Positions 19,777-36,857 of a DNA stretch of 64,000 bases are shown here, piece after piece. The DNA lies in assembly GCF_004348825.1 (NCBI RefSeq), contig NZ_SMJU01000001.1, forward strand, positions 434,001 through 498,000, written 5' to 3'. The notes below the pieces were generated by a model, which saw only the letters and a program-made list of their open reading frames with translations, had not been told where the DNA came from and made no database searches. The DNA comes from Arundinibacter roseus (GTDB lineage Bacteria; Bacteroidota; Bacteroidia; Cytophagales; Spirosomataceae). The position numbers and the translations under genes were made by a program. Position 1 is the stretch's first letter. Each line of letters opens with the position of its first letter.

Positions 19777-21567
19777 ATGACATTAGCAGAGTTAAAACAA
19801 CTAAAAGAAAGCGAGAACAAAGTCGAGTTCAAAGAATCTAAGGGAGGAAACTATAGTGTCAAGGGGGGCACAAAAGTTGATCCAAAGGATAGGCGTAAAT
19901 GCATAATCGGGTATGTAGTTGCTTTCGCGAACGAGGGAGGTGGATACCTTGTTTTTGGTGTTCATGATATGCATCCGCATAAAATTGTAGGCACTAATCA
20001 GTCGTTGGGTGCAGTTGGCAAGCTTGAGCAGGATATTTACCGCGAAAAGCAAATCCGAGTTGATATTTCAGAACTCTACGAAGACGATAAAAGAGTTTTG
20101 GTTATCAAAGTCCCTGCACGACCCGCGGGTAAAGTTTATAAGTTCGAAGATGTTCCCTTGATGCGTGTAGGAGAGGAATTGCTGCCTATGCCTGATGAGC
20201 ATTATTTGAAAATCATCCAGGAGCAAGAGCCGGACTTTTCAGAAACTATGTGCGAAGCTTTGAACCTTAGTGATTTGAATGAAGAGGCCATACAGAAGAT
20301 GAAAGAAGCATATGCTGAAAAACAAAGAAATCCTTTATTTCTTACACAATCTAACGAGCAATGCCTTATTGATCTCCATTTGATAAAAGGTACTAAAGTA
20401 ACCTATGCAGCTCTCATACTTTTGGGAAAAGAGGAGGTAATTCGTCGCTTGCTTCCCCAGGCTGCCATTTTCTTGGAGTACCGGAAAGATATCGGTCAAA
20501 TAACATTTGATGATCGCAAACTTTTTTACCAACCCTATTTTCTCGCCATCGAAAAACTGTGGGATGCCATCAATTTAAGAAATGGCAACGTGCCGGTACA
20601 GCAAGGACCCTATATTTTTGATATCCCATTCTTTAACAATGAGGTTATTAGAGAGGCCGTCAATAATGCCGTTGCTCATCGTGATTATCGTCGGTCCAGC
20701 GAAGTGGTAATAAAGCAGTTTACACAGGCATTGCACCTAATTAGTCCAGGAGGGTTTCCGATAGGTGTAACTATTGACAACCTTTTGACAGTAAGTAGTA
20801 CTCCCCGCAACAGGCTTTTAGCAGAAGTGTTAGCAAAAACAGGAATAGTGGAACGTTCGGGGCAAGGTATTGATAAAATATTTTATCAAAGTGTTGCTGA
20901 GGCAAAAGGCTTACCGGATTACTCCAATACGGATGATTTTCAGGTCGAACTCAGGTTATCGGCGATTGTAAAGGATAAGGCTTTTGCATTGTTCATTAAG
21001 CAACTGCAAAAAGATAGACAAGATGATAAAAAATTAAGTGTCAAAGAAATCTTAGTGCTCGAAGCGGTAAGAGAAGGCAAGACAAAAACGGAATTAGATA
21101 GAAATATAGTAGAAAAGCTTGTAATAGAGGGTTTACTAGAAAAGCAGGGTAAGACATCCAATCAAACAATTTGCCTTTCCAGGGCCTATTACGCCTTTAC
21201 CAACAAAGAAGTTGATTATACGAAAAATATACCGGTTGATGAAAGCTATGTAATGATGAAGATAAACCAGTACCTAGCTGCATGGAAGAAAGCTAAGATG
21301 GGAAAATTTGTTGAATTATTTGATGGTCACTTAACAAGAGACCAAGTAAAAAGCCTTATATACAAACTTTCGGATCCTAAAACTGGGTTTTTAGAATTTA
21401 CGGGTACGGGTTCTGGAAGAGAATACTTTATCAGCAAAAAGGCGGTTTCAGGAGGGAAACTGATAGAAAGAGCTATCAGATTAGGATTGGAAGTGATGGA
21501 GAAGTCTGGCGAGATAAAAGTAGAATCCACAAAAAAAACACAAGATTTACACAAAAAAGAGGACTAA
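19777..21567 (+). CDS. AlbA_2/Schlafen-type ATP-binding protein
   Basis: 596 residues. The N-terminal AlbA_2 domain has ENKVEFKESKGG and VVAFANEGGGYLVFGVHD, the classic pair of motifs. A GHKL-like C-terminal ATP-binding domain follows at about 280-390, with EVIREAVNNAVAHRDYR and GIVERSGQGIDKI. After residue 400 comes a winged-helix-like region (LSVKEILVLEAVREGKT, IVEKLVIEGLLEKQGKT) and a Lys-rich tail. Proteins of this type are common in defence islands and next to mobile elements, and act as regulators or nucleic-acid-linked ATPases; the role here is open. It is the first gene of the island after tRNA-Val. The gene at 27442 matches its C-terminal part. Confidence 0.85.
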   Translation: MTLAELKQLKESENKVEFKESKGGNYSVKGGTKVDPKDRRKCIIGYVVAFANEGGGYLVFGVHDMHPHKIVGTNQSLGAVGKLEQDIYREKQIRVDISELYEDDKRVLVIKVPARPAGKVYKFEDVPLMRVGEELLPMPDEHYLKIIQEQEPDFSETMCEALNLSDLNEEAIQKMKEAYAEKQRNPLFLTQSNEQCLIDLHLIKGTKVTYAALILLGKEEVIRRLLPQAAIFLEYRKDIGQITFDDRKLFYQPYFLAIEKLWDAINLRNGNVPVQQGPYIFDIPFFNNEVIREAVNNAVAHRDYRRSSEVVIKQFTQALHLISPGGFPIGVTIDNLLTVSSTPRNRLLAEVLAKTGIVERSGQGIDKIFYQSVAEAKGLPDYSNTDDFQVELRLSAIVKDKAFALFIKQLQKDRQDDKKLSVKEILVLEAVREGKTKTELDRNIVEKLVIEGLLEKQGKTSNQTICLSRAYYAFTNKEVDYTKNIPVDESYVMMKINQYLAAWKKAKMGKFVELFDGHLTRDQVKSLIYKLSDPKTGFLEFTGTGSGREYFISKKAVSGGKLIERAIRLGLEVMEKSGEIKVESTKKTQDLHKKED

Positions 21568-22201
21568 CACCAATCCTAACCAACCAAAAACACCTGATAA
21601 TCAATTAGTTATATCACAATTAAAGTCCACAAGTTTTCCACAAATTTTCAAAATTAAGACATGAAATACTGTGCTTTATAGCAAATAGCTTTGGCCGCCC
21701 TTGTTCTTTGTGCCGTATTCTCTACTACCATCTATGGCTTCAAAGCCAGAAGCCGTTAATAGTCCGAAAAATGTATGACAAAAGCCACTTTTGTTTGGCA
21801 AGTGCAACCAAGCATCCCCTACACTTGCAGGCCGGGAAACCTCAACTCTCCCAACAGGATTGTTCGGCGGTGGTTTGTGCCCGGAAAGTAGTGGGACGCC
21901 TGCTTACTTCGGATAATAACCTTAGAAAATTTGCTGTTTCCAAAAATCCAGACAGCGTCTGAATAATGAGAAATAAGTCAGATACTGTCTACCCAATTGA
22001 GCTGGAGACATTATACTGAAATCCTAAAATCTGATAACCGATTGAAAATCAGGAACTAAATCCAAAAATTGTGGGAAGTGTATTGTTCCTAATAAGCTTA
22101 CTATACGAACAAGGAATCATTTATCTTCAATAGTATATGGGCTTAAAGGATTTCTTATAGTTTATTAATTCTTAACCCTCTTTAACTCGCTCAATACGCA
22201 C
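21568..22201. other. Gene-poor stretch between the AlbA_2 and HipA-like genes
   Basis: 634 bases without a convincing intact gene. It holds a broken signal-peptide-like frame (21661-21759, listed separately) and a 38-codon frame at 21775-21891 of unknown value. AT-rich sequence precedes the HipA-like gene. The pattern looks like decayed accessory DNA. Confidence 0.5.
21661..21759 (+). pseudogene. Signal-peptide-like frame interrupted by TAG
   Basis: ATG at 21661 opens MKYCAL, then an in-frame TAG at 21679-21681. The same frame continues QIALAALVLCAVFSTTIYGF and a short basic end before TAA at 21757. The hydrophobic core and start look like a secretion signal whose gene has been broken and truncated. 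It may be chance in a short frame. Confidence 0.3.
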
Positions 22202-22993
22202 TTGCAATCCCACCACTCCATAGAGGCAATCGAAAAGGTCTTTCAAACTCAGGAACGTCCAGTTCTGGTCAGTTGCGAAGATTATAGGGACTATGTTTGC
22301 AAGTATAGATACACTGACAGGCAATTTAAAGAACTGATAGCATGGGCATTCTTAAATCAATGGGGTCTATCGGTACCTGAGGCAGCCTTAATAAGTGTCA
22401 AACGAGATCATGTTTCTGATGTAGCCTTGAAAGAGGGCGCTAGATATAATTATTTTGAAAGGCCAATATTCGGATCATTGTATCTTCCTTCTGCTAACGA
22501 AATAAATAATTTGACATATGCCCAGCCTGACAACAGGATAGATTTATTAAAAATTGCACTATTTGATTTATGGCTGGCAAATGAAGATCGAAATCATAAT
22601 AACTATAATCTGCTCCTGGTATCCCAATCGAACGGGAAGAAGATGATCCACCCAATCGACCATGGATTATGTTTCAATTCCACTAGTATTGGAGTGGGGA
22701 GCCTATCAGTACTGACAGAGGATGAAAGCCTTTTATCATCTAATTACTGTAAAACATTGTATGCCAACAGTAACGTAGTTGCTAGAGATTGTGAGACAGT
22801 TCTGGATTCATTTCGTAAAAATGTTCGACTTTGTAAAAAAACTTTACCAGAAATCCTGAACTTTGTGCCCCCTCCTTGGCGTATAGACTCACAGGAAGTA
22901 CAGAGTTGGATGGATGAAAATCTTTTTAGTGAAAAATGGTTGAGTTCAACACAGAACACCTTCAGGCAATACGTACAACTTTACCTGCATTAG
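22202..22993 (+). CDS. HipA-like kinase-fold protein
   Basis: About 263 residues from a TTG at 22202. No ATG is available between the in-frame stop at 22166 and the conserved start SIEAIEKVF, so the start is uncertain. The kinase-fold signatures of HipA-type proteins are seen in FDLWLANEDRNHNNYNLLL (catalytic loop with Asp, Arg and Asn) and IHPIDHGLCF (the metal-binding Asp segment). The N-terminal nucleotide lobe is short (RPVLVSCEDYRDYVCKY). No HipB-type antitoxin is next to it. Instead a DUF3037 protein follows after 38 bases, a pairing known in many bacteria, so the two are a likely functional unit. Target unknown. Confidence 0.75.
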   Translation: MQSHHSIEAIEKVFQTQERPVLVSCEDYRDYVCKYRYTDRQFKELIAWAFLNQWGLSVPEAALISVKRDHVSDVALKEGARYNYFERPIFGSLYLPSANEINNLTYAQPDNRIDLLKIALFDLWLANEDRNHNNYNLLLVSQSNGKKMIHPIDHGLCFNSTSIGVGSLSVLTEDESLLSSNYCKTLYANSNVVARDCETVLDSFRKNVRLCKKTLPEILNFVPPPWRIDSQEVQSWMDENLFSEKWLSSTQNTFRQYVQLYLH

Positions 22994-23031
22994 CAGCGTT
23001 CATATACAAATAGTACAACTGAATATTCATT

Positions 23032-23901
23032 ATGTCAAGTTTTTACAGCATCGTATACGTAAACATTCGCCCTGCGCTGGGCGAGAGGGTAAGTATTGCC
23101 TTGTTGTTACGCGACGAACAGAACCTACTATTTCATCAGGCTCCTGAAAAGTTAGAAGCCCTGAAGACTATTCTGCCCAGTGAAGCTTATAACCTGGCTC
23201 GTACACTGATCAAAAACTTAGATAGTCTGCTTTCCGATTCAGGCATTGAGGATACGCGTTCTGAGTATCAGATTAATTTAGGATCTGATAAACAAGCTTT
23301 TACAGAAAAGAGCTATCTATCGTACCTATCGGCCTATGGTAATAATTTATTGACCTTTTCAGAGCCCCGGACAATTGATATACCTACGACGCAGGAGACC
23401 TTTACCCGGTTATTCCAAAAGTATGTGCATACCGGATGGGAATCTTCACAACGCCAATCAACGCGTACGAGTCTTGTAAAGTATGTTCGGGAAATGCTTT
23501 ACCCAAAAGTAAAGGATCGGGTTAACCTGGATGCTGTTATAACGACGGAAATGGTCCCTGGATTGGTAGCCCCGACAAAAGTGAACCTTGCAGGCAGGAA
23601 TGAGGTGAATATGATTGGGCAAATAGTTGATTTTGAGAAAAAAAAACCCGGTTCACTCGCAGACGATATCAATCGCGTTCTGGCGCTTGTGCGGGCCTTT
23701 GAGGAAAAGAATGATAAGGGCAAGTATTTTATTATCGGGAGAGAGCCAAAGAAAGAGCTTTCTGAGCAGCATGCTATATGGGAAAACGTTCGTGACCTCC
23801 CAACTCTTGACTTTGTGGCAGATACTGAAACAGATCGGATTGGTGAATACATCGAAGAACACAACGTTCAACCTCTGATTCCGGTTTCTTTCGAATCCTA
23901 A
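23032..23901 (+). CDS. DUF3037 family protein
   Basis: 289 residues. The start FYSIVYVNIRPALGERVSIALLLRD is the family hallmark, and the rest is mainly helical (LEALKTILPSEAYNLARTLIKNLDSLL). No catalytic motif is visible. DUF3037 proteins occur next to HipA-like kinases, as here, and the pair is often found in accessory regions. A toxin-antitoxin or defence role has been guessed for such pairs but I cannot support one. There is no signal peptide; it is probably cytoplasmic. Confidence 0.8.
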   Translation: MSSFYSIVYVNIRPALGERVSIALLLRDEQNLLFHQAPEKLEALKTILPSEAYNLARTLIKNLDSLLSDSGIEDTRSEYQINLGSDKQAFTEKSYLSYLSAYGNNLLTFSEPRTIDIPTTQETFTRLFQKYVHTGWESSQRQSTRTSLVKYVREMLYPKVKDRVNLDAVITTEMVPGLVAPTKVNLAGRNEVNMIGQIVDFEKKKPGSLADDINRVLALVRAFEEKNDKGKYFIIGREPKKELSEQHAIWENVRDLPTLDFVADTETDRIGEYIEEHNVQPLIPVSFES

Positions 23902-24061
23902 GAATCGGAAAAGTATTAATCACGCCAATCCTGAGCGCCGTAGAAGCAAAGTCAGCCGTTGGGTACTTTTTGGAATGATGTCCCCAAAAACCCAGGCAAC
24001 CACACACATTCAGATTTTTTTCTTAACATTGAGGTACAAAACCTTCTCCCTTTTGTCCACA

Positions 24062-26758
24062 ATGAACAGTACCCAAATCGAAAGCAACGTTCAGCAGCTT
24101 ATCCGCGCACATCAGCCCGATACCTTTATTTATGACCTACTCCTGGCCTACGGGCAACCAAAGGCCTCCATCAAGCGCTTACAGATTGGTTCGCTCAATC
24201 TGGCAAAGCAGGCCGGCGAAATAGCCTGGAAGAAAAAACTCTACTACCGCGAGATTCCCGCCGGAGACGATCTGAACGCCCAACTCGACGAGCTGCGGGC
24301 CGATGCGGCCGTTACCAAACATGATCCGCGCTTTATCGTGGTCACGGACCACAGGTCCCTCGCGGCCTGCGACCGCAAAACTCAGGAGACAATCTGCTGC
24401 ACGCTGACCGAACTGCCCCGGCACTTTGATTTTTTTCTGCCCTGGGCGGGCATGGAAAAAACGCAGCTCCAAAACGAAAATCCCGCTGATGTAAAGGCCG
24501 CCGAGAAAATGGCCCGGCTATACGACGAAATCCGGAAGGACAACCCCACCGATACGCCCGAAGCCGTGCATGGCCTCAATGTGTTTTTGTCGCGGCTGCT
24601 GTTCTGCTTTTTTGCCGAAGATACCGGCATTTTTGAAAAGGCACAGTTTACCAATGCCATTGGCAGCCACACGCAGACCGACGGCAGCGACCTGCATGCG
24701 TATCTCGACCGCCTTTTTGAGATCCTGAATACGCCCGCGCGGGCAGCAGACCTACCGGCCTACCTCACGGCTTTTCCGTACGTCAACGGTGGGCTGTTTC
24801 GCAACCGCCACCACGCACCGGTGTTTACGCGCCGCAGCCGGCAGGCCGTCATCGATAGCGGCGAGCTGGATTGGAGCGCCATCAATCCCGATATTTTCGG
24901 GTCTATGATTCAGGCCGTGATTACGCCCGAGCACCGGGGCGGGCTGGGTATGCACTATACGTCGGTGCCCAATATCATGAAGGTCATTGAGCCGCTGTTT
25001 CTCAACGAGTTGCACGAGGAGTTTGAGGCGGCACAGGGCGCGCCCAAAAAACTCAACGCCCTGCTCACACGCATGCAGCGCATCAAACTCTTTGACCCCG
25101 CCTGCGGCAGCGGCAATTTTCTGATTATTGCCTACAAGGAACTCCGGCGGCTCGAAATGAAGATTTTCCGGGCCCTCAACACGCTCGCACTTTCCAACAT
25201 CAGTCTTAGTAATTTTTACGGCATTGAGCTCGACGACTTTGCGCACGAGGTCGCGATTCTTTCGCTGTGGCTGGCGGAGCATCAGATGAATCAGGAGTTT
25301 TTCCGGGAGTTTGGCCGCTCCAAACCTTCCCTGCCCCTCACGAGCGCCGGGCACATTGTACACGGAAACGCCTGCCGACTCGACTGGGAATCCGTTTGCC
25401 CCAAACTCGAAGGCGATGAAGTGTATATTCTCGGAAATCCGCCGTATTTGGGATATAGTATGCAAAATAAAGTGCAAAAAGAAGATATTGATTTAGTTTT
25501 TAAGGGGTTAGATAACTATAAAAACTTAGATTACATTGCCTGTTGGTTTTTGAAAGGAGCTAATTTTATTCAAAATTATAACGCTCAATTCGCATATGTA
25601 AGCACAAACTCTATTTGTCAAGGGGAGCAAGTGGCATGTCTATGGAGACATGTTTTTATTAGAAATCTCGAAATAGGATTTGCACATACCTCATTCAAAT
25701 GGGCAAATAACGCAAAGTCAAATGCAGGGGTTATTGTAGCTATAATTGGAGTTAGAAATTTGTCGAATAAGAAAAAATTTATTTTTAGAAACTCTACAAA
25801 AAAAATAACTTCCAAAATTAGCCCATATTTGATTGAAGCAGGCGATTTTATAATTCAGAAAAGAAGTACTCCTCTTTCACAATTTCAGCCTATACTTAGA
25901 GGTAGCGGTCCCATTGATGATGGAAATCTAATTTTAGATAGTTTTGAAAAAGATGAATTATTGGCAAAATATCCATCAGCGAAAAAGTTTATTAAAAGAC
26001 TATTAGGAGCTCATGAATTTATTAATGGATTTGAAAGATGGTGTTTGTGGATTGAGGACAATGACTTAAATGAAGCAAAAAGTATACCTGAATTTCAAAC
26101 ACGCATCAAGAAAGTAGAACTATTTAGACTTTCCAGTAATAAGAAAAATACTAGAAATGATGCGATAAATTCCCATAGATTTAGTGAAAATAGATTTAAT
26201 AATACTCATGGATTATTTGTTCCAAGAGTATCATCTGAAAGGAGAGTTTATATACCATTTGGTTTTGTTGAAAATACTGTAATAGTTGATTCTGCCCAAG
26301 CTATCTATGATCCCGATCCATACCTTTTCTCCATCCTAACCTCCCGCATGCACATGACCTGGGTGCGAGCTGTGGCGGGTAGACTAAAAACGGACTATCG
26401 TTATTCCAACACCCTCTGCTACAACACCTTCCCCTTCCCTCCCATTTCCGAAACGCAGAAGCAGGAGCTGGAAGGGCACGTGTATAATATTTTGGGTGAG
26501 CGGGAGGCGCATTCGGAAAAAACCCTGGCGCAGCTCTACGACCCCGAAAAAATGCCCGCCGGCCTGCGCGAAGCCCACCGCCAAAACGACCTCGCCGTGG
26601 AGCGCTGCTACCGTAGCCGCCCTTTCGAGAGCGACGAAGAACGGCTCGAATACCTCTTCAAACTCTACGAGCAGATGATCGCGCGGGAGCAGGAAAAGGG
26701 GACGTTGTTTGAAGGTGCCGGGAAGAGGAAAAGGTCTGGAACTTTGATTAGAAAATGA
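24062..26758 (+). CDS. MmeI-like class I SAM-dependent DNA methyltransferase
   Basis: 898 residues from ATG 24062; a longer frame adds 29 residues with no family character. The order follows MmeI-type enzymes: an N-terminal domain, a helical spacer (FLSRLLFCFFAEDTGIF, AFPYVNGGLF), then the methyltransferase with FDPACGSGNFLIIAY (motif I), YGIELDDFAHEVA and ILGNPPYLGY (motif IV, NPPY for adenine N6). The target-recognition domain covers about 463-753 and a C-terminal helical part follows. I do not see the MmeI nuclease motif D-x9-ExK in the N-terminus, so cutting probably needs another protein. A helicase and a GIY-YIG nuclease follow 1.3 kb downstream. The target-recognition part is AT-rich while both flanks are GC-rich. 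Confidence 0.88.
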   Translation: MNSTQIESNVQQLIRAHQPDTFIYDLLLAYGQPKASIKRLQIGSLNLAKQAGEIAWKKKLYYREIPAGDDLNAQLDELRADAAVTKHDPRFIVVTDHRSLAACDRKTQETICCTLTELPRHFDFFLPWAGMEKTQLQNENPADVKAAEKMARLYDEIRKDNPTDTPEAVHGLNVFLSRLLFCFFAEDTGIFEKAQFTNAIGSHTQTDGSDLHAYLDRLFEILNTPARAADLPAYLTAFPYVNGGLFRNRHHAPVFTRRSRQAVIDSGELDWSAINPDIFGSMIQAVITPEHRGGLGMHYTSVPNIMKVIEPLFLNELHEEFEAAQGAPKKLNALLTRMQRIKLFDPACGSGNFLIIAYKELRRLEMKIFRALNTLALSNISLSNFYGIELDDFAHEVAILSLWLAEHQMNQEFFREFGRSKPSLPLTSAGHIVHGNACRLDWESVCPKLEGDEVYILGNPPYLGYSMQNKVQKEDIDLVFKGLDNYKNLDYIACWFLKGANFIQNYNAQFAYVSTNSICQGEQVACLWRHVFIRNLEIGFAHTSFKWANNAKSNAGVIVAIIGVRNLSNKKKFIFRNSTKKITSKISPYLIEAGDFIIQKRSTPLSQFQPILRGSGPIDDGNLILDSFEKDELLAKYPSAKKFIKRLLGAHEFINGFERWCLWIEDNDLNEAKSIPEFQTRIKKVELFRLSSNKKNTRNDAINSHRFSENRFNNTHGLFVPRVSSERRVYIPFGFVENTVIVDSAQAIYDPDPYLFSILTSRMHMTWVRAVAGRLKTDYRYSNTLCYNTFPFPPISETQKQELEGHVYNILGEREAHSEKTLAQLYDPEKMPAGLREAHRQNDLAVERCYRSRPFESDEERLEYLFKLYEQMIAREQEKGTLFEGAGKRKRSGTLIRK

Positions 26759-26890
26759 TTAAATGAAGACTATGAGATTGTAGGGTTTAGATTTTGTGTG
26801 TGCTGTGATTGGGATAATTAGATTGTTTTGATTTTTTGATTGACTTCTTTATTATATTTTGGCTGTTTATTATTTAATTAACTGATTATC

Positions 26891-27304
26891 ATGGAAGAAA
26901 AGCCTATTTATCCGTTGTCTGATCTGACTGGAAAAATAATTGGCTGTGCGATGGAAGTACACCGAACTTTGGGTAATGGATTTCAAGAGGTAATATACCA
27001 GCGGGCATTGGCTATTGAAATGAGTGAACAGGGCTTGAAATTCAGTCGTGAGCACGAAATGGATATTTTCTATAAAGGTGAAAAGATTGGATTACGTCGG
27101 GTTGATTTTTTTGTGGAAAGCAATATTATGCTGGAACTAAAAGCCGTCATTCAACTCGATGATGTTCATCTTGCACAAGCAATCAATTATTTAGAAGCCT
27201 CGAAAATGCCGATTGGACTTTTAATAAACTTCGGCAGTACAAGCCTCCAATTTAAACGAGTTATGAAACCTACCAGAAAACGCACTAATCAGAATCCAAA
27301 ATAA
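26891..27304 (+). CDS. GxxExxY family protein (PD-(D/E)XK-like)
   Basis: 137 residues. The name motif is present as GFQEVIYQ, followed by FSREHEMDIFYKGEKIG, the RVDFFVE strand and LELKAV, the D...E-x-K pattern of a PD-(D/E)XK nuclease fold. It continues HLAQAINYLEASKMPIGLLINFG, a typical family block. Members are small, scattered in Bacteroidota and cyanobacterial genomes, and of unknown function. It sits with a truncated AlbA_2 gene in an AT-rich segment between the methyltransferase and helicase genes, and looks like a later insertion. Confidence 0.85.
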   Translation: MEEKPIYPLSDLTGKIIGCAMEVHRTLGNGFQEVIYQRALAIEMSEQGLKFSREHEMDIFYKGEKIGLRRVDFFVESNIMLELKAVIQLDDVHLAQAINYLEASKMPIGLLINFGSTSLQFKRVMKPTRKRTNQNPK

Positions 27305-27378
27305 TTACAACCATCAATCAGTTAACCAATAAAAAATTATAATTTCACAATCCTCAATGATAAAAAAGCACGGACTAA

Positions 27379-27960
27379 TGGTCATCAGTCAATCATAAAA
27401 TCATAGTCCCACTCCCCGAAATCGTCAGCGAGTTTACTCGGGTGGCAGTGACGGTGTATTCCGGCATAGTAGATACGGAGGTCATCTCCATTCTTGATTA
27501 TATAGATAAGCACTACCGGCTGACACAAAAGGAGTTCATTGCCCTGGGACTGATAGCAACAGAGAAGAAAATACTTTCTACTCAATTGGCCACCAAACTG
27601 CAACTGGCTCAGGAAGACAAAATGCGTTCGTGGGTAGGCCCACTGATTGAGAAAGGGGTTATCATCAGTCAGGGCGTCAAAAAAGGAACAGAATATTTAT
27701 TAAATCCTGAGCTGTTTTCACAAGCGAGATTAGACATAAAGCCCTCGTTAAAGACCATTGAGCCTTATAAGCTAGAAGCATTGATTATCGAGGACCTGCG
27801 CTATAATGGTAAAAGTACAATGCAAGAAATAATGAAAAGATTGCCAGAACTATCCAGTAGTCACATTCAAAAGGCTGTATATCAACTTGTTGAAAGAGGG
27901 GATTTGTTACCCGAAGGAGGCAAAAGAAATAGGAGATATACGTTGTCCAAAAAAAAATAA
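27379..27960 (+). pseudogene. Truncated C-terminal part of an AlbA_2/ATP-binding protein
   Basis: The open frame runs from after the stop at 27376 and has no good start; GTG 27442 is the usual machine choice and gives 172 residues. The text before it, PLPEIVSEFTRVAVTVYSG, is the strand that follows the ATP-binding domain in AlbA_2 proteins. Then come two winged-helix units (LTQKEFIALGLIATEKK, STMQEIMKRLPELSSSHIQKAVYQLVERGDLL). The order matches the C-terminal part of the intact protein at 19777 (DDFQVELRLSAIV, then LSVKEILVLEAVREGKT). The AlbA_2 and ATPase domains are missing, so this is most likely a remnant, though a free winged-helix protein could still be made. Confidence 0.65.
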
Positions 27961-28081
27961 ATAAAAGTAAAATTAGAAAATAAACTACATAACTAACTAT
28001 AAATCAGATATATATATTTTCATTTATAAAAAGTAAAAAGAAAATAAAACACAGTTTAGTCAGCAATTAACCCTTTTCTTA

Positions 28082-30217
28082 ATGCCCGATATAGTCCACG
28101 TCACCTACGCCCAAACGGGCCAAAGCGCTACCACTGATCCGCTGGGAATGCGCGAAATGCAGCAGAAAGTCTATCAGGCCCGCGATGCGCAGTACCTTTT
28201 ACTCAAAGCCCCGCCTGCCTCGGGCAAATCGCGCGCGCTGATGTTCGTGGCCCTGGACAAGCTCATGAATCAGGGCATCCGGAAGGTCATTGTGGCCGTG
28301 CCGGAGCGCTCCATTGGGGGGGCATTTGCGGCCACCCCGCTCAAAGCGGACGGTTTCTACGCCGATTGGTCGCCCAATCCGCTGTACAACCTTTGCACGC
28401 CCGGCATGGACGGCAGCACGAGCAAGGTGCAGGCCTTCAAAAACTTCCTGAACAGCGGCGAGCAGATTTTGATCTGTACCCACGCCACACTGCGCTTTGC
28501 CTTTGAGGAACTCGACGAATCGGCCTTCGATACCATCCTGCTGGCTATCGACGAATTTCACCACGTATCTGCCGACGGCGACAGTCGCCTGGGCGAGCTG
28601 CTGCGGAGCATCATGGCCAAGTCCAGCGCCCACATTGTAGCCATGACGGGCTCCTACTTTCGGGGCGACAGCGTGCCGGTGCTACTGCCCGAAGACGAAG
28701 ACCGCTTTACCAAAGTCACCTACAACTATTATCAGCAGCTCAATGGCTACCGCTACCTGAAATCACTGGGCATTGGCTACCATTTTTACCAGGGCAAATA
28801 CACCTCGGCTATTCTGGAAGTGCTGGACACCAACAAAAAAACCATCCTGCACATTCCGAACGTCAACTCGGGCGAGTCTACCAAGAAAAAGCATGAGGAA
28901 GTAGACACCATTCTGGATGCCGTGGGAGAAGTAGTTTCTGTCGATCCTGACTCCGGCATCATCCACCTCAAACGCCATACCGACGGCAAAGTATTGAAAG
29001 TAGCCGACCTGGTAAACGACACCTCCCGCGACCGCGAAAAGGTGGTGGCTTACCTGCGGGGCATCAGCTCTGCCGACGAGCTGGACCTGATTATTGCCCT
29101 GGGCATGGCCAAAGAGGGCTTCGACTGGCCCTACTGCGAGCACGCCCTCACGGTAGGCTACAGGGGCTCGCTCACGGAGATTATCCAGATCATTGGCCGC
29201 GCCACCCGCGACAGCGCCAACAAAACCCACGCGCAGTTTACCAACCTGATTGCCCAGCCCGACGCCGCCGATGACCTCGTACGGGTGTCGGTCAATAACA
29301 TGCTGAAAGCCATCACGGCTTCGCTGCTGATGGAGCAGGTACTGGCGCCCAACTTCAAGTTTAAGACCAGGCTGTCGGACGACGATCGGACGGAACCCGG
29401 CGAAATAAAGGTGCGTGGCCTGAAAGAACCCAGTACACAGCGGGTGCAGAACATTGTGGAGTCGGATCTGAATGACCTCAAAGCCCGAATTCTGCAAGAC
29501 GACACGATGCTCAAAACCATCCCCGGCACGGTAGACCCGGAGGTAATCAATAAAGTACTGATTCCAAAGATCATTCAGGCCAGGTACCCGCAGCTCACCG
29601 AAGAAGAAGTGGAAGAAGTACGGCAGTATGTAGTGCTCGACTCCGTGGTGAAAAACAACCTGATGGTAGACATACAGGAGCTCAAAAAGGCGATTCAGAA
29701 AGACGAAAGTATTCAGAAAGCCATACAGGGCGGAGTGCCGGAAAGTCAGATTAACAAAGACCTGGTGCCCAAAGTAGTGCAGGCGCTATACCCCGACCTG
29801 GAACAGGACGACCTGCGGAAGTTCAGCGAATTGGCCGTTGCGGAGGACAATCCGGCCTACTCAGGTTCAGAAAGTGGCGATACACGTTTTATTCGCATGG
29901 CCGGACAGTTTGTCAATATAGATGACCTGCACATTGACCTGATTGACCGCGTCAACCCGTTTCAGAAAGCCTACGAGATTCTGTCAAAATCGGTGACGAC
30001 CAAAGTCCTGAAAGTGATTCAGGACAGCATTGAGGCTACGCGCATTCAGATGACGCTGGAAGAGGCTTTGCTGCTATGGCCAAAGATTCAGGATTTTGTA
30101 AAAACCTTCCGGCGAGAGCCCGGTTTACACGCTTCCGATCCTCTGGAAGTACGCATGGCGCAGGCGTTGATCTATCTGAAAGAACAAAAACGCAAGGCAC
30201 AGTATGGACAAGGATAA
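28082..30217 (+). CDS. DEAD/DEAH-type helicase
   Basis: 711 residues. Superfamily 2 motifs: Walker A in KAPPASGKSRALM, motif II as AIDEFHHVS (DEFH), motif III-like VAMTGSYF, and motif VI EIIQIIGRATRDS. The C-terminal third (about 460-590) holds two related 60-residue repeats, each with the pattern LK-x-I ... INK-x-L-x-PK-x-x-QA-x-YP, not part of the helicase core. It overlaps the GIY-YIG gene by 14 bases, implying coupled translation. With the MmeI-like methyltransferase upstream, it could be the translocase of a restriction system. It could also be an independent defence pair with the nuclease. G+C is high, like the methyltransferase core. Confidence 0.88.
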   Translation: MPDIVHVTYAQTGQSATTDPLGMREMQQKVYQARDAQYLLLKAPPASGKSRALMFVALDKLMNQGIRKVIVAVPERSIGGAFAATPLKADGFYADWSPNPLYNLCTPGMDGSTSKVQAFKNFLNSGEQILICTHATLRFAFEELDESAFDTILLAIDEFHHVSADGDSRLGELLRSIMAKSSAHIVAMTGSYFRGDSVPVLLPEDEDRFTKVTYNYYQQLNGYRYLKSLGIGYHFYQGKYTSAILEVLDTNKKTILHIPNVNSGESTKKKHEEVDTILDAVGEVVSVDPDSGIIHLKRHTDGKVLKVADLVNDTSRDREKVVAYLRGISSADELDLIIALGMAKEGFDWPYCEHALTVGYRGSLTEIIQIIGRATRDSANKTHAQFTNLIAQPDAADDLVRVSVNNMLKAITASLLMEQVLAPNFKFKTRLSDDDRTEPGEIKVRGLKEPSTQRVQNIVESDLNDLKARILQDDTMLKTIPGTVDPEVINKVLIPKIIQARYPQLTEEEVEEVRQYVVLDSVVKNNLMVDIQELKKAIQKDESIQKAIQGGVPESQINKDLVPKVVQALYPDLEQDDLRKFSELAVAEDNPAYSGSESGDTRFIRMAGQFVNIDDLHIDLIDRVNPFQKAYEILSKSVTTKVLKVIQDSIEATRIQMTLEEALLLWPKIQDFVKTFRREPGLHASDPLEVRMAQALIYLKEQKRKAQYGQG

Positions 30218-31361
30218 GCTACTGCGGGCAATTTTTGAAAACGATCCGCTGGGCCTGCTCAACATAAAGCCGGCGGGCCATCCGGTACGTAATGAAGACG
30301 AACGGCTGGTCGCAAGTTTTCAGGAAATTGTCGATTTCTTTGAGAAACACAGCCGCCCGCCCGCCTCCGGTGGCGGTATTCAGGAGCATCAGCTCTATAC
30401 CCGACTGGAATCCCTGCGGAAGAATCCCGAAAAAGTAGCGGTGCTCCAAAAACACGACCCTCATAACCTGCTGCAACCAGAGAAAAAGGAACTTACCTCG
30501 CTGGAAGATGTGCTGTCAGATGATATTTTGGGCCTACTGAATGACGACGCCGGGGATTTATTTGACCTGCGCCACGTACCCAAAGAAACCACAATGCCCG
30601 ACTACGTGGGTAAGCGCACAGTCTGTGAAGATTTTGAGCAGTTTGTACCCTTGTTCACGGCCTGTCAGGGCGACCTGAAAACGGGCAAACGGAAACTGCT
30701 GCCTTTCCGCAACGAGCAGCAAATTGAGAAGGGATATTTCTTTGTGCTGAAAGGGATTTTGTTGTACGTAGCCGACGTAGGCACCCGCGAACAGGACAAG
30801 GGGAAAGTCAACGCCCGCCTGCGCTGTATATTCGAGAATGGCACCGAGTCGGACATGCTGCTGCGCTCTTTGGCTGCCGAACTATACAAAGACGGCCGGC
30901 GTGTTACCGAACATCAGGATCGCTATCTGAATGGGCTCCGGGGGATTGGGCCGGAAGACGAAAACACCGGATTTATCTACATTCTGAAATCGCAGAGCCA
31001 AAATCAGGCGATTCGAAGTATCCAAAACCTGTACAAAATAGGCTTTACGAAAATGCCCGTAGAAGACCGAATCGTACAGGCCCGACAGGACCCAACCTTC
31101 CTGATGGCTGACGTCCGGATCGTGATGACCTACCAATGCTACAACCTGAACCCACAGAAACTGGAACAATTGCTGCATAGCTTCTTTGGCAACTCCTGCC
31201 TCAACCTCGACGTATTCGATCAGGCCGGTCAGCGCCACACGCCCCGCGAGTGGTTCATTGCACCGCTGCACATCATCGAACAGGCCGTGCACCTGATCCT
31301 ATCAGGCGAGATTGTGCACTATCGGTACGATGCAGAGAAGGAGGAGATTGTGGGGAGGTAA
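30204..31361 (+). CDS. GIY-YIG nuclease family protein
   Basis: 385 residues. The C-terminal GIY-YIG domain (about 250-350, T5orf172/Mug113 type) has TGFIYILKSQ and LYKIGFTKMPVEDRI, the two halves of the name motif, with the catalytic Arg in DRI. It continues YNLNPQKLEQLLHSFFG (conserved Glu region) and REWFIAP. The N-terminal 250 residues are unassigned, possibly a contact surface for the helicase. The ATG at 30204 lies inside the end of the helicase gene. A role as the DNA-cutting subunit of the methyltransferase-helicase set is inferred from context. Confidence 0.85.
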   Translation: MDKDKLLRAIFENDPLGLLNIKPAGHPVRNEDERLVASFQEIVDFFEKHSRPPASGGGIQEHQLYTRLESLRKNPEKVAVLQKHDPHNLLQPEKKELTSLEDVLSDDILGLLNDDAGDLFDLRHVPKETTMPDYVGKRTVCEDFEQFVPLFTACQGDLKTGKRKLLPFRNEQQIEKGYFFVLKGILLYVADVGTREQDKGKVNARLRCIFENGTESDMLLRSLAAELYKDGRRVTEHQDRYLNGLRGIGPEDENTGFIYILKSQSQNQAIRSIQNLYKIGFTKMPVEDRIVQARQDPTFLMADVRIVMTYQCYNLNPQKLEQLLHSFFGNSCLNLDVFDQAGQRHTPREWFIAPLHIIEQAVHLILSGEIVHYRYDAEKEEIVGR

Positions 31362-31706
31362 GTGGAGATAAAATTTAGATTGTATTCACCAACACTTTGG
31401 CTGAGTCGTTCAAAATGAATATTGAAGCATATATAGCCAGTTCAGAGGCTTTTGAAATGTTTAATTCTTTTTTTACCCAATGACTCGAAGTATACTAAAC
31501 TAGATTGACTCCGCAATATTTAGTCTTGATCTTGGAAGACTAAGTATAACTATACAGTAGCCGTACACTTTTTCAGTTTCTTTGTCTACCAATTCACTAT
31601 TTTATTACCCTTAATTTCCAATTAGTAAGTATTTTTATTAATTTTCAAGAGATCGTACCGCGCTGATCTAGTGATTTCTTATATTGTCGCAAAAAGGAGA
31701 TAGTTT
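31362..31706. other. Intergenic stretch after the GIY-YIG gene
   Basis: 345 AT-rich bases. The only frame from an ATG is 22 codons (31414-31482), not convincing. The end carries AAAAAGGAG a few bases before the next start codon, so it serves as leader for the 31707 gene. No clear terminator or repeat is seen. Confidence 0.4.
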
Positions 31707-32462
31707 ATGACGAGAAGTACTAACCCTGTATCTGATTTTAATGTAGAGATTATTGGCGAGAAGAAAGTAGAGAAGCCATATGCAGAAACCCTTCAAGTCT
31801 TCACCTTTAAGGTTTCAAACCTGTTGCCAAAGGAGAGAGAAATAGAATTCATGCCATGTATTTATATCACTAGTAAGCAAGAGCAGTTAGAGACTAGGGA
31901 TTTAATAAATACATCAAGTCTATGGTCTGATAGTCTTAAACCAAATGTATATAAAATCTATGATTTCTTATTCAAGGAAGAGCAGCTATCCAAAATTGTA
32001 AATGGTGACCAAATCTTTATTGCTCTAATGCTAGAATCTAAATCCGTACAATTAAAATATGAATTCATCCGGGAAAAAGGTAGTTGGGTTTTAAGTAATT
32101 TCACAAAGATCGATTTCATATTGACCAAAAAGTTGATCCAAAATAGTCTTACAAAAAAACTTGAAAGGCTTGAAGTTTTTGAAGAAAAGTATAAAGTCAC
32201 TTTTGAAAGTTTAACCATAGAAGTAAAAAGTAATGATTTAATTACTGTTGTTGGGGAACTTCATTCAAGCGAAGGAATGTATTTAAAAAACACTTCATTC
32301 TTTGTTTATGCTATTGCTTATGATGAGGAAGGAATAATTATAGCTCAGAACAGAGATCGTATCCATAAAGAACGTTTCTATGGTTTCGAAATTATTGACT
32401 TTAATTTAGCAGGTCACGATATCGTCAACCGGGTACGAAAAATTAGAGTTTATCCTACTTAA
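31707..32462 (+). CDS. Hypothetical strand-rich partner of the GHKL-DUF3883 protein
   Basis: 251 residues, no signal peptide, no membrane segment. It has alternating strands (ETLQVFTFKVSNLL, EFMPCIYITSK, ITVVGELHSSEGMYLKNTSFFVYAIAYDEEGIII) resembling two immunoglobulin-like or FxLYD-like sandwich domains joined by a short Lys-rich helix near residue 150. I do not recognise a family. A good ribosome-binding site (AAAAAGGAG) precedes it. It ends 11 bases before the GHKL gene and shares its low G+C, so the two were probably acquired together and act together. Confidence 0.7.
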   Translation: MTRSTNPVSDFNVEIIGEKKVEKPYAETLQVFTFKVSNLLPKEREIEFMPCIYITSKQEQLETRDLINTSSLWSDSLKPNVYKIYDFLFKEEQLSKIVNGDQIFIALMLESKSVQLKYEFIREKGSWVLSNFTKIDFILTKKLIQNSLTKKLERLEVFEEKYKVTFESLTIEVKSNDLITVVGELHSSEGMYLKNTSFFVYAIAYDEEGIIIAQNRDRIHKERFYGFEIIDFNLAGHDIVNRVRKIRVYPT

Positions 32463-32473
32463 AAATTAAGCTT

Positions 32474-34564
32474 ATGTTTGCTAAAACCATTCGAGAAAAA
32501 TTATTAAGTGAGGCTAAACAATCACCAGACCTTCTCTCAGATTTGGCTGGCTTGGAGAACTACATTGCTGAAAGCTATAATAATCGATCCTTTATAGAGC
32601 TTTTACAAAATGCAGATGACTCTGGTTCGACTAAGTTTAAGATACTCAAAGTTGGCGATCTACTATATGTCGCAAATAATGGCAGACTATTCAATGAATT
32701 AGACTTTGAGAGTCTGTGTAGAAGTGCTGCATCATCCAAAATCAGAACAAAGTCAATAGGTTATAGAGGTATAGGTTTCAAGTCAGTAGTAGGTTTTGCG
32801 CAGGAAATCCATATCATAAGTGGAGAACTTGAAGTAACCTTTTCAAAAGCCAGAACCCAAATAGAAATACCAAATGCAACAAGAGTACCATTGATAAGGG
32901 TTCCTCACTTTTTGTTAGAAGAAGACAAAATCAAATTAACAACAACCATTGAACAGCTACGAAATGAAGGGTTTACCACCATTTTTGTATTTACTGGCAT
33001 CCAAAATAGTAAAATCGAAGCCGAGTTTGAAACTTTTAATTACCGATCTTTGATTTTTCTTCGCAATGTTACTTTTACAGACATCTCCATATCACAACCT
33101 AATATCACCTACGTAGTTAAAAATAAATTTTCAGATACTAAAACTAAGATTATAATTACCCAAAATGGTATTTCTTCTTCGTGGTTATTATCGGCAGTTA
33201 GCAAGTCTACTATTGCTTTCCAATATAAAAATGAGGAAGTGGTGAAAATACCGGGGAATGAAGCATTGGTTCATTCCTTCCTTCCTACTGAGGTTTCTAG
33301 TGGGCTCGGCGTACTATTAAACTGTGATTTTAGCACTGACCCATCAAGACGGCATCTTATATATGATGACCAGACTATTTCGTCGATTAAGGAATGTGCC
33401 TACCATATCATGGGTATAGTGAATGATTGCCTGAATACTCCTTCGCAGGATTCTGTGCAAATAATCAATGCACTGATCCCCTACAATGACCCAAGAACTC
33501 TCTTGCTCAAAGCTCGCTCCTTTGAAAAGTATTTACTTGAAGAGCTTCAACTTTGTAGTTTGAATACATTTGACTCCATTAGACTTCCACCTAGTTGGCT
33601 AAACCCTAAGGATTATTATTCAATTGTTGATAATAATTTCAAAACGTTTGAGTGGGCTTTCCTTCAACTGCAAGGCTTTAAATCATACTCTTTATATCTC
33701 GGCTCATCTGAAAGTCACCTAAACGACTTCAAAGAGTATATAAACAATACAGAAATAACCACTCTCGGGTGTGTCCAAATATCTAAGTATATATTTAAAA
33801 TACTTATTTCCGGCAACCTAAGTAACAAAGAAGAACTTTCGGACATACGGGTAATTTACACCTCACAGGGAAGACTTTCGCTTATAGAGTTATCCTCGCC
33901 ATTAGTACTTGATGAGCGTTATTTATCTCTGCTCCTTGAAAATGGAATTACTCAAAGTGACATAAAATACACTTTCTCCAAGTTTGTAGCTGATTTTAAC
34001 TTTATAAATAATAAAAGTGGCATTGCTAATAATACACATACTAAAGTGCCTAATCCTGATTTGTTAGTTGATAAGAGTAAGCCATTAAATAAGATCGAAG
34101 CTAATTCGCAAAACTTAACTTATGGTGGAAACCAATCACGTTCCGAAGGGTTAAGTAATACTTATAAAAGTAAGCCGTTTACCAATGCTGCAAAATGGAG
34201 AAGTGCCGAAGAATTGACTCTTCTAGTCTTAAATGCATATGGCTATAATCTCGAAGACGTTAGCAAACAAAATATCGGGTACGATATTTCAGGTACTGAT
34301 CCCAAAGGTAATCCAATTCAAATTGAAGTGAAATCAATCAATTTACCAGGTCAGAAGTTTAAGCTTACCAATAATGAGATCGCTGTGGCTCAGGAGAAAC
34401 AAGATTCCTACAACGTAGCTGTAGTTCGCCAAATTAATCACACACTAGAAATTTGTCTTATACCAAACCCCATTAACAATTTGTCATTCAACAGGCAATG
34501 TGTTCAGTGGATATGGGAGTGCGACCACTATGATTATAACCCCGTCATTTTTAATATTGAATAA
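32474..34564 (+). CDS. GHKL (HSP90/sacsin-like) ATPase with C-terminal DUF3883 domain
   Basis: 696 residues. The N-terminal ATPase has the Bergerat-fold boxes: FIELLQNADDSG (N box), LYVANNGRLFNELDF (G1 region, with NNG where DxG is usual) and GYRGIGFKSV (G2). This is the sacsin/HSP90-like branch. The middle is unassigned. The C-terminal DUF3883 domain has LTLLVLNAYGYNLEDVS, then GYDISGTDPKGNPIQIEVKS, the D...E-x-K nuclease-like signature. DUF3883 is common in defence proteins. The ATPase may sense or clamp nucleic acid and the C-terminal domain may cut it, which is inference. It is the last gene of the island, with a terminator following. The upstream gene is probably its partner. Confidence 0.85.
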   Translation: MFAKTIREKLLSEAKQSPDLLSDLAGLENYIAESYNNRSFIELLQNADDSGSTKFKILKVGDLLYVANNGRLFNELDFESLCRSAASSKIRTKSIGYRGIGFKSVVGFAQEIHIISGELEVTFSKARTQIEIPNATRVPLIRVPHFLLEEDKIKLTTTIEQLRNEGFTTIFVFTGIQNSKIEAEFETFNYRSLIFLRNVTFTDISISQPNITYVVKNKFSDTKTKIIITQNGISSSWLLSAVSKSTIAFQYKNEEVVKIPGNEALVHSFLPTEVSSGLGVLLNCDFSTDPSRRHLIYDDQTISSIKECAYHIMGIVNDCLNTPSQDSVQIINALIPYNDPRTLLLKARSFEKYLLEELQLCSLNTFDSIRLPPSWLNPKDYYSIVDNNFKTFEWAFLQLQGFKSYSLYLGSSESHLNDFKEYINNTEITTLGCVQISKYIFKILISGNLSNKEELSDIRVIYTSQGRLSLIELSSPLVLDERYLSLLLENGITQSDIKYTFSKFVADFNFINNKSGIANNTHTKVPNPDLLVDKSKPLNKIEANSQNLTYGGNQSRSEGLSNTYKSKPFTNAAKWRSAEELTLLVLNAYGYNLEDVSKQNIGYDISGTDPKGNPIQIEVKSINLPGQKFKLTNNEIAVAQEKQDSYNVAVVRQINHTLEICLIPNPINNLSFNRQCVQWIWECDHYDYNPVIFNIE

Positions 34565-34607
34565 TTCCCCTAATAGAGGTTTTACTTAGAACTCCCATCC
34601 ACCCCAT

Positions 34608-34640
34608 AAAACGAATCGCCCCCGCTGTTCGTTTTTTTTT
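34608..34640 (+). terminator. Terminator at the right end of the island
   Basis: AAACGAA (34609-34615) pairs with TTCGTTT (34628-34634) around a C-rich loop, followed by a T-run to 34640. It separates the AT-rich GHKL gene from the GC-rich core genes. Confidence 0.75.
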
Positions 34641-34742
34641 ATGTCTTCTATCGTAACTTGCGATTGCATTTACTTTTAAAACATATCCTTCACCAACAAT
34701 CAGTTGACTTTATCAGGTAGAAAGGCAAAACCCCTGCTCGCT

Positions 34743-36857
34743 ATGAAACAACTTATTCAAAATCTAAAAAATGGTCAGACCAGCCTGGAAGACGTACCCG
34801 CTCCGCAGGTGAAGCCGGGCACGGTGCTGATTCAGACACGCCGAAGCCTGGTGTCGCTCGGTACCGAACGCATGCTGGTGGAGTTCGGAAAAGCAAACCT
34901 GCTGGACAAGGCCCGTCAACAGCCCGATAAGGTAAAAATGGTGTTTGATAAAATCCGGACAGACGGCCTGAGGCCCACGCTGGAAGCCGTTTTTAGCAAA
35001 CTGGATCAACCCCTGCCACTAGGCTACTGCAACGTCGGTACGGTACTGGCGGTGGGTGCAGGCATAACGGATCTGCACGTGGGCGACCGCGTTGCAAGCA
35101 ACGGCCCGCATGCCGAGGTGGTGTGCGTGCCCCGCAACCTGGTGGCGTCGATCCCGGCAGAAGTATCGGACGACGAAGCCGCATTTACCGTCATTGGCGC
35201 CATTGGTTTGCAGGGCATTCGCCTGCTTAATCCTACCCTTGGCGAAACGATCGTGGTGGTGGGCCTGGGTCTCATTGGTTTATTGACTGCTCAAATGTTG
35301 CGGGCAAACGGCTGTCAGGTCATTGGTATTGACCTCGACGAAAGCAAATTGGCCCTTGCCCGGGCGGCGGGTATCAGCACCTGCAACCCCTCCGCCGGCG
35401 ATGATCCGGTGCAGGTGGTCGAAAGCCTCACCCGGGGCGTTGGCGCAGATGGCGTGATTATTACCGCTTCGGCCAAAAGCAACGACATTATCTCACAAGC
35501 CGCCCGCATGTCGCGCAAGCGGGGTAAGATTGTGCTCGTGGGGGTGGTGGGATTAGACATTAGCCGGGCGGAGTTTTACGAAAAAGAACTTTCCTTTCAG
35601 GTATCCTGCTCTTACGGGCCGGGCCGCTACGACGACACCTACGAGCAAAAAGGGCAGGACTATCCGCTGCCGTTTGTACGCTGGACCGAAAATCGAAATT
35701 TTCAAACCGTGCTTCAACTGATTGCCTCCCGGCAACTTGACGTGCAACCACTCATTACGGAACGGGTGCCGCTGAGCGAGTACCACACCATCTATGACCA
35801 AATCGGCACGTCGCGAGCGATTGCGTCGCTGCTTGTGTACCCTGAGCAACTCGCCTCGCCGGGAGCGGTGCAGCATACGACCGCAACCTTTGACGGGCGT
35901 CGGGGCATTGCCGGGATCATAGGGGCCGGTAATTTCACCAAAATGACCTTGCTTCCTGCCCTGAAAGGATTTGAAATAAAATACATTGCCAGCGCAAACG
36001 GCCTCTCTGGAACAACCCTCGCCAAAAAGTTTTCGATTGCCAACAGCACTACTGACCCGCAGGAAATTCTTCGGGACCCGGAGGTTGACCTTGTGCTCAT
36101 TACAACCCGACACCATCAGCACGGCACGTTTGTACTCGACGCGCTGCAGCACCGAAAACATGTTTTTGTAGAAAAACCGCTGACTATTTTTGAAGAAGAA
36201 CTAGACGAAATTGAGCAGTTTTTTATTCAAAATAATCCTTCTTTATCGCTTACTGTCGGTTTCAATCGTCGGTTCTCGCCGCATGCCGTACAGATGAAAA
36301 CGCTGCTTGGGAGCGCGCCCATGAACATTGTGGCTACCATGAACGCCGGCTTTATTCCGGCTAACTCGTGGGTACACGACCTGGCCGTGGGCGGTGGGCG
36401 GATTTTGGGCGAAGCCTGCCATTTTCTGGATTTGATTACCTATCTGACTGGAAGCAAACTAACGGCTGTTTGCATGAACGCAATGGGCACGCAGCCCGAC
36501 CAAACCACCGACAACGCCAGTATTTTGGTTCGGTGCGAAAACGGCTCCACGGCAACGATTCACTATTTTTCCAACGGTAGCAAAGCCTATTCCAAAGAAC
36601 GTGTGGAAGTGTATTCCCAAAACCGAACGCTGGTACTGGACAATTTTCGGCTCCTGACCGGGTATGGTTTTAAAGGATTTTCCAAATTAAAAACACAGCA
36701 GGACAAAGGGCATCGCAATCAGTTTCGGCAGCTGTTTGAATCCGTTCAGCAAGGTGGGGCAAGCCCGATTCCGCTGGCAGAAATTCTGAATGTTAGCCGG
36801 GCTACTTTTGCGGCTCTCAAAAGCCTGCAACGCAACGAGTGGGTAGAAATAAACTAA
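34743..36857 (+). CDS. Two-domain oxidoreductase (MDR alcohol dehydrogenase plus Gfo/Idh/MocA)
   Basis: 704 residues from ATG 34743, where the conserved start KQLIQNLKNGQTSLEDVPAP begins. Residues to about 350 form a zinc-independent medium-chain dehydrogenase/reductase with Rossmann motif VVVGLGLIGLL. From about 380 a second NAD(P)-binding Gfo/Idh/MocA unit starts with GIAGIIGAGNFTKM and carries VFVEKPLT (the family EKP). Such fusions occur in exopolysaccharide or O-antigen clusters and probably modify a sugar. The next gene begins nine bases downstream, and a glycosyltransferase follows, so this is a polysaccharide operon. Confidence 0.88.
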   Translation: MKQLIQNLKNGQTSLEDVPAPQVKPGTVLIQTRRSLVSLGTERMLVEFGKANLLDKARQQPDKVKMVFDKIRTDGLRPTLEAVFSKLDQPLPLGYCNVGTVLAVGAGITDLHVGDRVASNGPHAEVVCVPRNLVASIPAEVSDDEAAFTVIGAIGLQGIRLLNPTLGETIVVVGLGLIGLLTAQMLRANGCQVIGIDLDESKLALARAAGISTCNPSAGDDPVQVVESLTRGVGADGVIITASAKSNDIISQAARMSRKRGKIVLVGVVGLDISRAEFYEKELSFQVSCSYGPGRYDDTYEQKGQDYPLPFVRWTENRNFQTVLQLIASRQLDVQPLITERVPLSEYHTIYDQIGTSRAIASLLVYPEQLASPGAVQHTTATFDGRRGIAGIIGAGNFTKMTLLPALKGFEIKYIASANGLSGTTLAKKFSIANSTTDPQEILRDPEVDLVLITTRHHQHGTFVLDALQHRKHVFVEKPLTIFEEELDEIEQFFIQNNPSLSLTVGFNRRFSPHAVQMKTLLGSAPMNIVATMNAGFIPANSWVHDLAVGGGRILGEACHFLDLITYLTGSKLTAVCMNAMGTQPDQTTDNASILVRCENGSTATIHYFSNGSKAYSKERVEVYSQNRTLVLDNFRLLTGYGFKGFSKLKTQQDKGHRNQFRQLFESVQQGGASPIPLAEILNVSRATFAALKSLQRNEWVEIN

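Follow-up and report, generated by a model that had tools for sequence, protein, structure and literature searches.

The stretch of DNA considered here, called the window throughout, covers 64,000 nucleotides (nt) of contig NZ_SMJU01000001.1 (positions 434,001 to 498,000, assembly GCF_004348825.1) from the 5.83 Mb genome of Arundinibacter roseus. At 24062–31361 it carries five genes, all on the + strand, which encode in order an MmeI-like DNA methyltransferase, a GxxExxY protein, a winged-helix open reading frame (ORF), a superfamily 2 (SF2) helicase and a GIY-YIG nuclease. By described gene content and order, the methyltransferase, helicase and nuclease correspond to the published dnmA(yeeA)-yeeB-yeeC cluster of Bacillus subtilis, and the locus is an intact, newly seen example of that cluster. 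A preliminary description of this DNA had picked out an MmeI-like protein with methyltransferase and target-recognition parts and no D-x9-ExK nuclease motif, followed by a GC-rich helicase and nuclease overlapping by 14 bases. All of this holds: the nuclease ORF (30204–31361) begins 14 nt inside that of the helicase (28082–30217), and the GC content in 1-kb blocks is 0.52–0.55 at 28–31 kb, against 0.38 at 27–28 kb and 0.33–0.40 at 31–34 kb. The same description had however missed two ORFs (26891–27304 and 27442–27960) in the ~1.3 kb between methyltransferase and helicase, a spacing also seen at other gapped loci, and what it called a DEAH helicase reads D-E-F-H at motif II.

The methyltransferase gene (24062..26758, +; assigned from its ORF, Pfam and alignment) encodes a DnmA/YeeA-like, MmeI-type adenine DNA methyltransferase with a target-recognition domain. 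Its longest ORF has a first ATG at 23975, giving 927 amino acids (aa), while a start at 24062 gives 898 aa; the latter fits well, since Pfam MmeI_N begins at residue 1 of the shorter version. MmeI_hel, MmeI_Mtase, MmeI_TRD and MmeI_C are also present, and homology to MmeI spans residues 56–875 (E 6e-183). The MmeI_N domain (residues 1–160; 24062..24541, +; Pfam and alignment) lacks the PD-ExK catalytic residues and may serve as a partner interface. In MmeI these residues are D70, E80 and K82, according to the accessible part of PMC4833311; the window protein has E, R and I in the same columns of the multiple alignment. A pairwise alignment can set an E against E80, at the cost of a proline in place of the lysine, and a loose pattern, D-x(8-11)-[DE]-x-K, gave no match near the motif place in the window protein. 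The target-recognition part allows a prediction. K776 and D778 stand at the positions of MmeI E806 and R808, where a K/D pair reads G just after the methylated adenine, while R780 and A745 equal MmeI R810 and A774, a type of pair that reads a purine before that adenine (both rules from the part of PMC4833311 available). The window enzyme is thus predicted to recognise a site with G after the methylated A, possibly with a purine before it. GACGAG, the sequence methylated by DnmA (PMC7261158, PMC9973331, each available in part), agrees with this in form.

The helicase (711 aa, YeeB-like; ORF, Pfam and model) scores above the Pfam cut-off for DEAD and just below those for Helicase_C and ResIII; no nuclease domain was found in it by Pfam. 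Residues K49, S50, D157, E158, H160, T189, G190, S191, R373 and R376 are invariant in all 55 aligned sequences. The structure model (mean pLDDT 78, pTM 0.55) has a core, at about residues 17–423, that comes closest to RIG-I, MDA5, LGP2 and FANCM (Z ~21–22 over ~320–340 residues, root-mean-square deviation (rmsd) ~3.5–4); this comparison covers mainly the residues up to 424. Foldseek places the EcoR124I HsdR subunit at rank 21 and Type ISP LlaBIII at rank 40. Further on, a 61-residue segment (residues 536–596; 29687..29869, +; alignment) occurs in three of the 55 aligned helicases, those of the window, L010 and L011; by eye it is a diverged copy of the preceding segment, whereas self-BLAST showed no repeat. 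The last 72 residues gave no match in a sequence search against the PDB.

The third protein (385 aa, YeeC-like, + strand; ORF and Pfam) matches MUG113 and T5orf172 (PF10544, hmmscan E 4.6e-10). A six-frame search of the organism's own genome with PF10544 gave no match, unlike the protein-level hmmscan, and the protein result is relied on here. All 60 nucleases compared have Y259, K278, G280, R289, E321 and H325. The structure searches say little about this protein, because no GIY-YIG nuclease appears among the 50 rows shown in either list (Foldseek, VIA-align) although Pfam detects the domain. Foldseek found nothing at E 0.001 or below; VIA-align gave for the middle part (about residues 165–238) a best row with Z 6.3 and rmsd 3.7 over 94 residues, with EF-P, Tudor and SAWADEE rows at Z 4–6. 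No fold name was adopted from these SH3-like barrel rows, which may reflect a common arrangement only.

The helicase and nuclease seem to share an element. A helical region at residues 665–703 of the helicase (30074..30190, +; hhalign) resembles the N-terminal helical region of the nuclease, with a probability of 92–93% and E 3e-7 to 8e-7, each from a single comparison. Among 73 segment comparisons, the others above 8% were an overlapping helicase segment (86%) and nuclease residues 1–100 against 101–200 (86.5%). The latter likeness may come from a D-x-LGLL-like motif found twice in the nuclease, at about residues 13–19 and 106–112, where the model has low confidence or next to such parts. The strict pattern has its two copies in 35 and 32 of 60 nucleases and both together in 20 of 60, and is a lead only.

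Do these genes belong together? A scan with the helicase returned at least 579 relatives, of which the best 80, hence the closest, were read as loci, gene presence being called by tblastn at 40 bits or more. The preliminary description had proposed looking for the three genes as neighbours in other genomes, and neighbours they are: 71 of the 80 loci have the methyltransferase, 77 the nuclease and 68 both. The gaps in this pattern coincide with short flanks: the methyltransferase is found at 67 of the 67 loci with at least 2.8 kb upstream, the nine loci without it all having less, and the nuclease at 77 of the 77 loci with at least 300 nt downstream, the three without it again all having less. 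The order methyltransferase-helicase-nuclease is kept at 67 of the 68 loci carrying both partners; L052 (1156–7013) shows the odd order helicase-nuclease-methyltransferase. In 62 of 83 cases, with starts set by script, the nuclease begins inside the helicase gene, and in 79 of 83 it begins within 40 nt. Over 65 loci, median pairwise identity is highest for the helicase (0.68), followed by the methyltransferase (0.51) and the nuclease (0.44). Judged by their protein distances the three genes co-evolve, with a Mantel r of 0.88 for methyltransferase and helicase and of 0.84 and 0.83 for the other pairs (65 loci, 0 of 999 permutations each).

The distribution is broad. Bacteroidota supply many of the closest helicase relatives that carry a name, and the helicase loci carry labels from Bacteroidota, Spirochaetota, Pseudomonadota, Campylobacterota, Bacillota, Planctomycetota, Cyanobacteriota, Chlamydiota, a Magasanikbacteria bin and an archaeon; these labels are those of the source records, many of them metagenome bins, and some may be wrong. 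Of 395 genomes sampled from the phylum, 44 contain the MmeI-like methyltransferase and 9 the helicase, at a limit of E 1e-60 for each; 7 of these 9 have the methyltransferase alongside, the other two being G293 and G128 (see below). An apparent decay of the methyltransferase in G218, with three stops in the match, was rejected, as an 874-aa frame stays open there. The helicase also occurs on 184 plasmid records, and the two plasmids inspected (from E. coli and Aeromonas salmonicida) carry DNA methyltransferase, helicase and GIY-YIG nuclease consecutively. Two phage records have a partial helicase match, and among 45 IMG/VR loci (at least 50 bits) 35 have the methyltransferase, 40 the nuclease and 31 both. 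The set is thus widespread on chromosomes, plasmids and viral contigs.

The loss of the nuclease residues follows this linkage. D-E-K is found at the aligned columns in 0 of 71 readable helicase-linked methyltransferases (D in the first column in 5, E in the second in 1, K in the third in 0), and is kept in 39 of 39 readable MmeI relatives without a helicase nearby. These counts concern proteins with the N-terminus covered, with one unreadable per group, and exclude three duplicate rows and the copies from the window itself; "unlinked" means no helicase within flanks of ~1.5 kb or less, plus none at E 1e-60 in the phylum-sample genomes, L005–L009 being so called from their flanks alone. The loose pattern, allowed within 40 alignment columns, occurs in 7 of the 71, six matches beginning downstream of the motif columns and that of L048 having another spacing and reading E-N-K. 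A working nuclease in the methyltransferase N-terminus, which had been left open at the outset, was rejected on these counts and on the window protein itself. The methylation motifs are kept, [ND]PP[YF] being present in 67 and DPAxGxGxF in 66 of the 68 methyltransferases longer than 800 aa. In a tree built without the N-terminal domain, the 73 linked methyltransferases, that of the window among them, group as one clade apart from 40 unlinked ones, on a branch of 0.50 with weak support (0.556), so that the nuclease residues were probably lost in one event.

The space between methyltransferase and helicase appears as an accessory slot. Among 75 loci with both genes on the same strand, the gap is below 250 nt in 32 and larger in 43; of the 43, two (L039, L043) hold only a piece of the methyltransferase and one (L060) has no ORF of at least 60 aa, which leaves 40. 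Clustering by BLASTP puts a ~550-aa protein first among the inserts (11 loci; its L019 representative has AlbA_2 and HATPase_c_4 domains), ahead of a RhuM-like protein (10 loci, represented from L078). Ten further inserts (278–873 aa, eight loci), hand-picked from the larger ones, were scanned against PADLOC models; seven match defence models at E 1e-8 or better and three match none. The matches are PDC-S06 (twice), an OLD/GajA-like ATPase, PDC-S42, PD-Lambda-2_B, PDC-S02 (YhcG by Pfam) and PDC-M02B, and the L041 insert matches, besides PDC-S06, PrrC (E 8e-19). In the window, the slot holds the C-terminal third (residues 367–549) of an AlbA_2/HATPase_c_4/winged-helix gene (27409..27960, +; family scan and BLAST). 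Its ORF runs from a GTG at 27442 to 27960 (172 aa), the 5′ two-thirds of the 549-aa gene type being missing, and the remnant shares 74% identity with the L019 copy across 183 residues. Beside it lies the GxxExxY protein (PDDEXK_3; 26891..27304, +; family scan), for which tblastn above 50 bits over the fetched loci (to L186) finds only the window's own copies; it is therefore not taken as core. PrrC-type genes within Type I loci act when restriction gets blocked. By analogy, the placing of a PrrC-like gene in this slot suggests that the system here is likewise active and guarded, and the slot may mark a place where further defence genes can be found.

The preliminary description did not recognise the set. 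It is the B. subtilis cluster to which it corresponds, with which it shares a nuclease-less methyltransferase homologous to MmeI, an SF2 helicase and a protein with a C-terminal T5orf172/GIY-YIG domain in the same order, MmeI_TRD and T5orf172 matches being present in B. subtilis in control searches. Unlike that cluster, the window has two ORFs between methyltransferase and helicase, and the 61-residue helicase segment. In a Ureibacillus set (L042), the helicase reaches 74% identity over its best segment. According to the accessible text of PMC7261158, Morgan et al. (2009) had placed DnmA among MmeI homologues without the nuclease motif and flanked by yeeB/yeeC-like genes, and a Type I-like system has been proposed for the cluster. 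Its conserved synteny is reported in the available part of PMC9973331, as is the absence from B. subtilis YeeB and YeeC of several C-terminal stretches present in Vibrio crassostreae. PMC8432527, PMC10333322 and PMC12707154 deal, in the parts available, with other systems or, where they bring in DnmA, present it solely as an orphan methyltransferase. No formal system name was found among the open-licence literature matches listed; nor were the match between linkage and nuclease loss, the slot content or the shared helicase-nuclease element met with there, though earlier reports may exist. The methyltransferase matches a Type IIG model of PADLOC-DB 2.0.0 strongly, while helicase and nuclease give weak partial matches only, and surveys made with this database are therefore likely to report a lone Type IIG enzyme.

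As the preliminary description proposed, modification, motor and cutting plausibly lie on three chains, because the genes travel together, the nuclease residues of the methyltransferase are absent, and the motor residues and most of the GIY-YIG residues are invariant. On this footing, which is the anatomy of the set with its lost and conserved residues, its co-occurrence and its co-evolution, it appears reasonably probable that the set is a Type I-like, ATP-dependent restriction system in which the methyltransferase recognises, the helicase translocates and the GIY-YIG protein cuts. The methyltransferase would recognise a short asymmetric site and methylate its adenine on host DNA, its dead MmeI nuclease domain being retained as a scaffold. 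At an unmethylated site it would instead recruit or license the YeeB-like SF2 helicase, which would travel on the DNA duplex, leaving the cut to the YeeC-like protein. Formation of a complex, translocation, cleavage of unmethylated DNA and a protective role are all steps that we infer.

Such a system would combine traits of several known ones. Like MmeI itself (Type IIL, PDB 5hr4), the window methyltransferase has all five MmeI Pfam domains; unlike MmeI it has no D-x9-ExK, so that cutting would fall to another protein, and a helicase is added. The logic of methyltransferase, SF2 translocase and nuclease is that of Type I (EcoR124I) and Type ISP (LlaBIII) enzymes. Unlike in Type I, no nuclease was found fused to the window motor, and no HsdS family among the nine window proteins scanned; unlike Type ISP, which is one polypeptide, the window has three chains. 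The HsdR nuclease is of the PD-ExK type, and whereas Type I and ISP enzymes have PD-ExK nucleases, that of the window is GIY-YIG.

How firmly can this mechanism be held? Several observations weigh against it. At residue 277, where the GIY-YIG pair has its second tyrosine, the 60 nucleases show Y (40), F (14) or H (6); the nuclease model has a pTM of 0.41; and no report of cleavage by a YeeC-like protein was found among the open-licence literature matches listed. The 71 linked methyltransferases are not independent, because they form one clade with probably one loss. The accessible parts of the B. subtilis papers also show no restriction of phages or plasmid: deleting dnmA had no effect on plasmid transformation (PMC7261158), single deletions of dnmA, yeeB and yeeC left infection by three phages unchanged, and phage genomes show no depletion of the DnmA motif, the authors calling the cluster a relic (PMC9973331). 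The methyltransferase would then work alone, as an orphan epigenetic regulator, helicase and nuclease being leftovers. One decayed copy fits with this: G128 (L124, 2490–7288) has a methyltransferase fragment, a helicase without its first ~55 residues and Walker A motif, and a full-length nuclease frame. (Since the Walker A motif is lost there, G128 was dropped as a sign that helicase and nuclease are harmless without the methyltransferase.) A relic should however decay first in helicase and nuclease, and these are well kept: no protein of the set is more conserved than the helicase, whose motor residues do not vary, and the nuclease residues are nearly invariant. Deletion of the dnmA or yeeB homologue in V. 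crassostreae moreover gave higher sensitivity to some phages, as cited in the available part of PMC9973331, and the defence-type genes of the slot argue against relic status in general. We therefore regard a relic as distinctly unlikely.

Could the complex block rather than cut? It might sense unmethylated DNA as in bacteriophage exclusion (BREX), the helicase halting replication or expression and the GIY-YIG protein coming in late, or on DNA structures, and not as the main cutter. The methyltransferase does match DrmMI (E 3e-33) and PglX models in part, and DrmD once, weakly; the phage phenotype cited in the accessible part of PMC9973331 varies by phage subclade; and the specificity of the nuclease was counted as leaving room for this reading. 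The nine window proteins scanned, however, include no partner from BREX or from the defence island system associated with restriction-modification (DISARM), whether PglZ, BrxC, DrmA, DrmB or DrmC, and Y259, R289 and E321 of the nuclease do not vary, so that blocking of this kind seems rather unlikely. It could also be that helicase and nuclease form a separate defence system merely travelling beside the methyltransferase. This would suit the gaps between methyltransferase and helicase, which reach 4.6 kb, and above all G293 (99% complete; L123, 635–10427), which also counts against the Type I-like mechanism as it has helicase and nuclease with no MmeI-like methyltransferase at E 1e-60. There, a dense defence cluster has SIR2, HerA and an AlbA_2/HATPase_c_4 gene directly upstream of the helicase, and also a PtuA-like ATPase. 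Against this stand the methyltransferase at every testable locus, the closeness of its distances to those of the helicase, and the absence of nuclease residues, which tracks helicase linkage exactly among the compared proteins; a separate pair is accordingly very improbable.

The Type I-like mechanism can be carried further, although more tentatively. It is possible, if somewhat doubtful, that a whole pan-prokaryotic class of ATP-dependent restriction exists, in which a dead-nuclease MmeI sensor loads a conserved double-stranded DNA translocase and steers a GIY-YIG nuclease that repeated docking elements hold in place. The junction slot, with its guard-type genes (PrrC-like ATPase, SIR2-HerA, OLD-like, YhcG), would make each such locus a guarded defence hub and not a relic. 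Bench work on the whole set concluded, in the text available, that the B. subtilis copy is inactive, and intact members make the mechanism directly testable.

The surroundings of the locus hold further candidates. At 19389–21567, a tRNA-Val precedes a gene of the AlbA_2/HATPase_c_4 kind, a distant relative of the slot gene, and may mark an island start; attachment repeats sought over 19200–36000 gave a single direct-repeat pair (22 nt, 82% identical) away from the tRNA, and we claim no attachment sites. Immediately before the methyltransferase (22202–23901) lie a gene for a HipA-like kinase (PDC-M66A, E 5e-15) and then one weakly matching PDC-M66B (E 9e-4), which form a candidate defence pair in PADLOC-DB. 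Downstream, at 31707–34564, a family-less gene (31707–32462) precedes that of a 696-aa sacsin-like/NOV_C protein, which resembles the N-terminal part of the PADLOC TmtA models (~1300–1780 aa).

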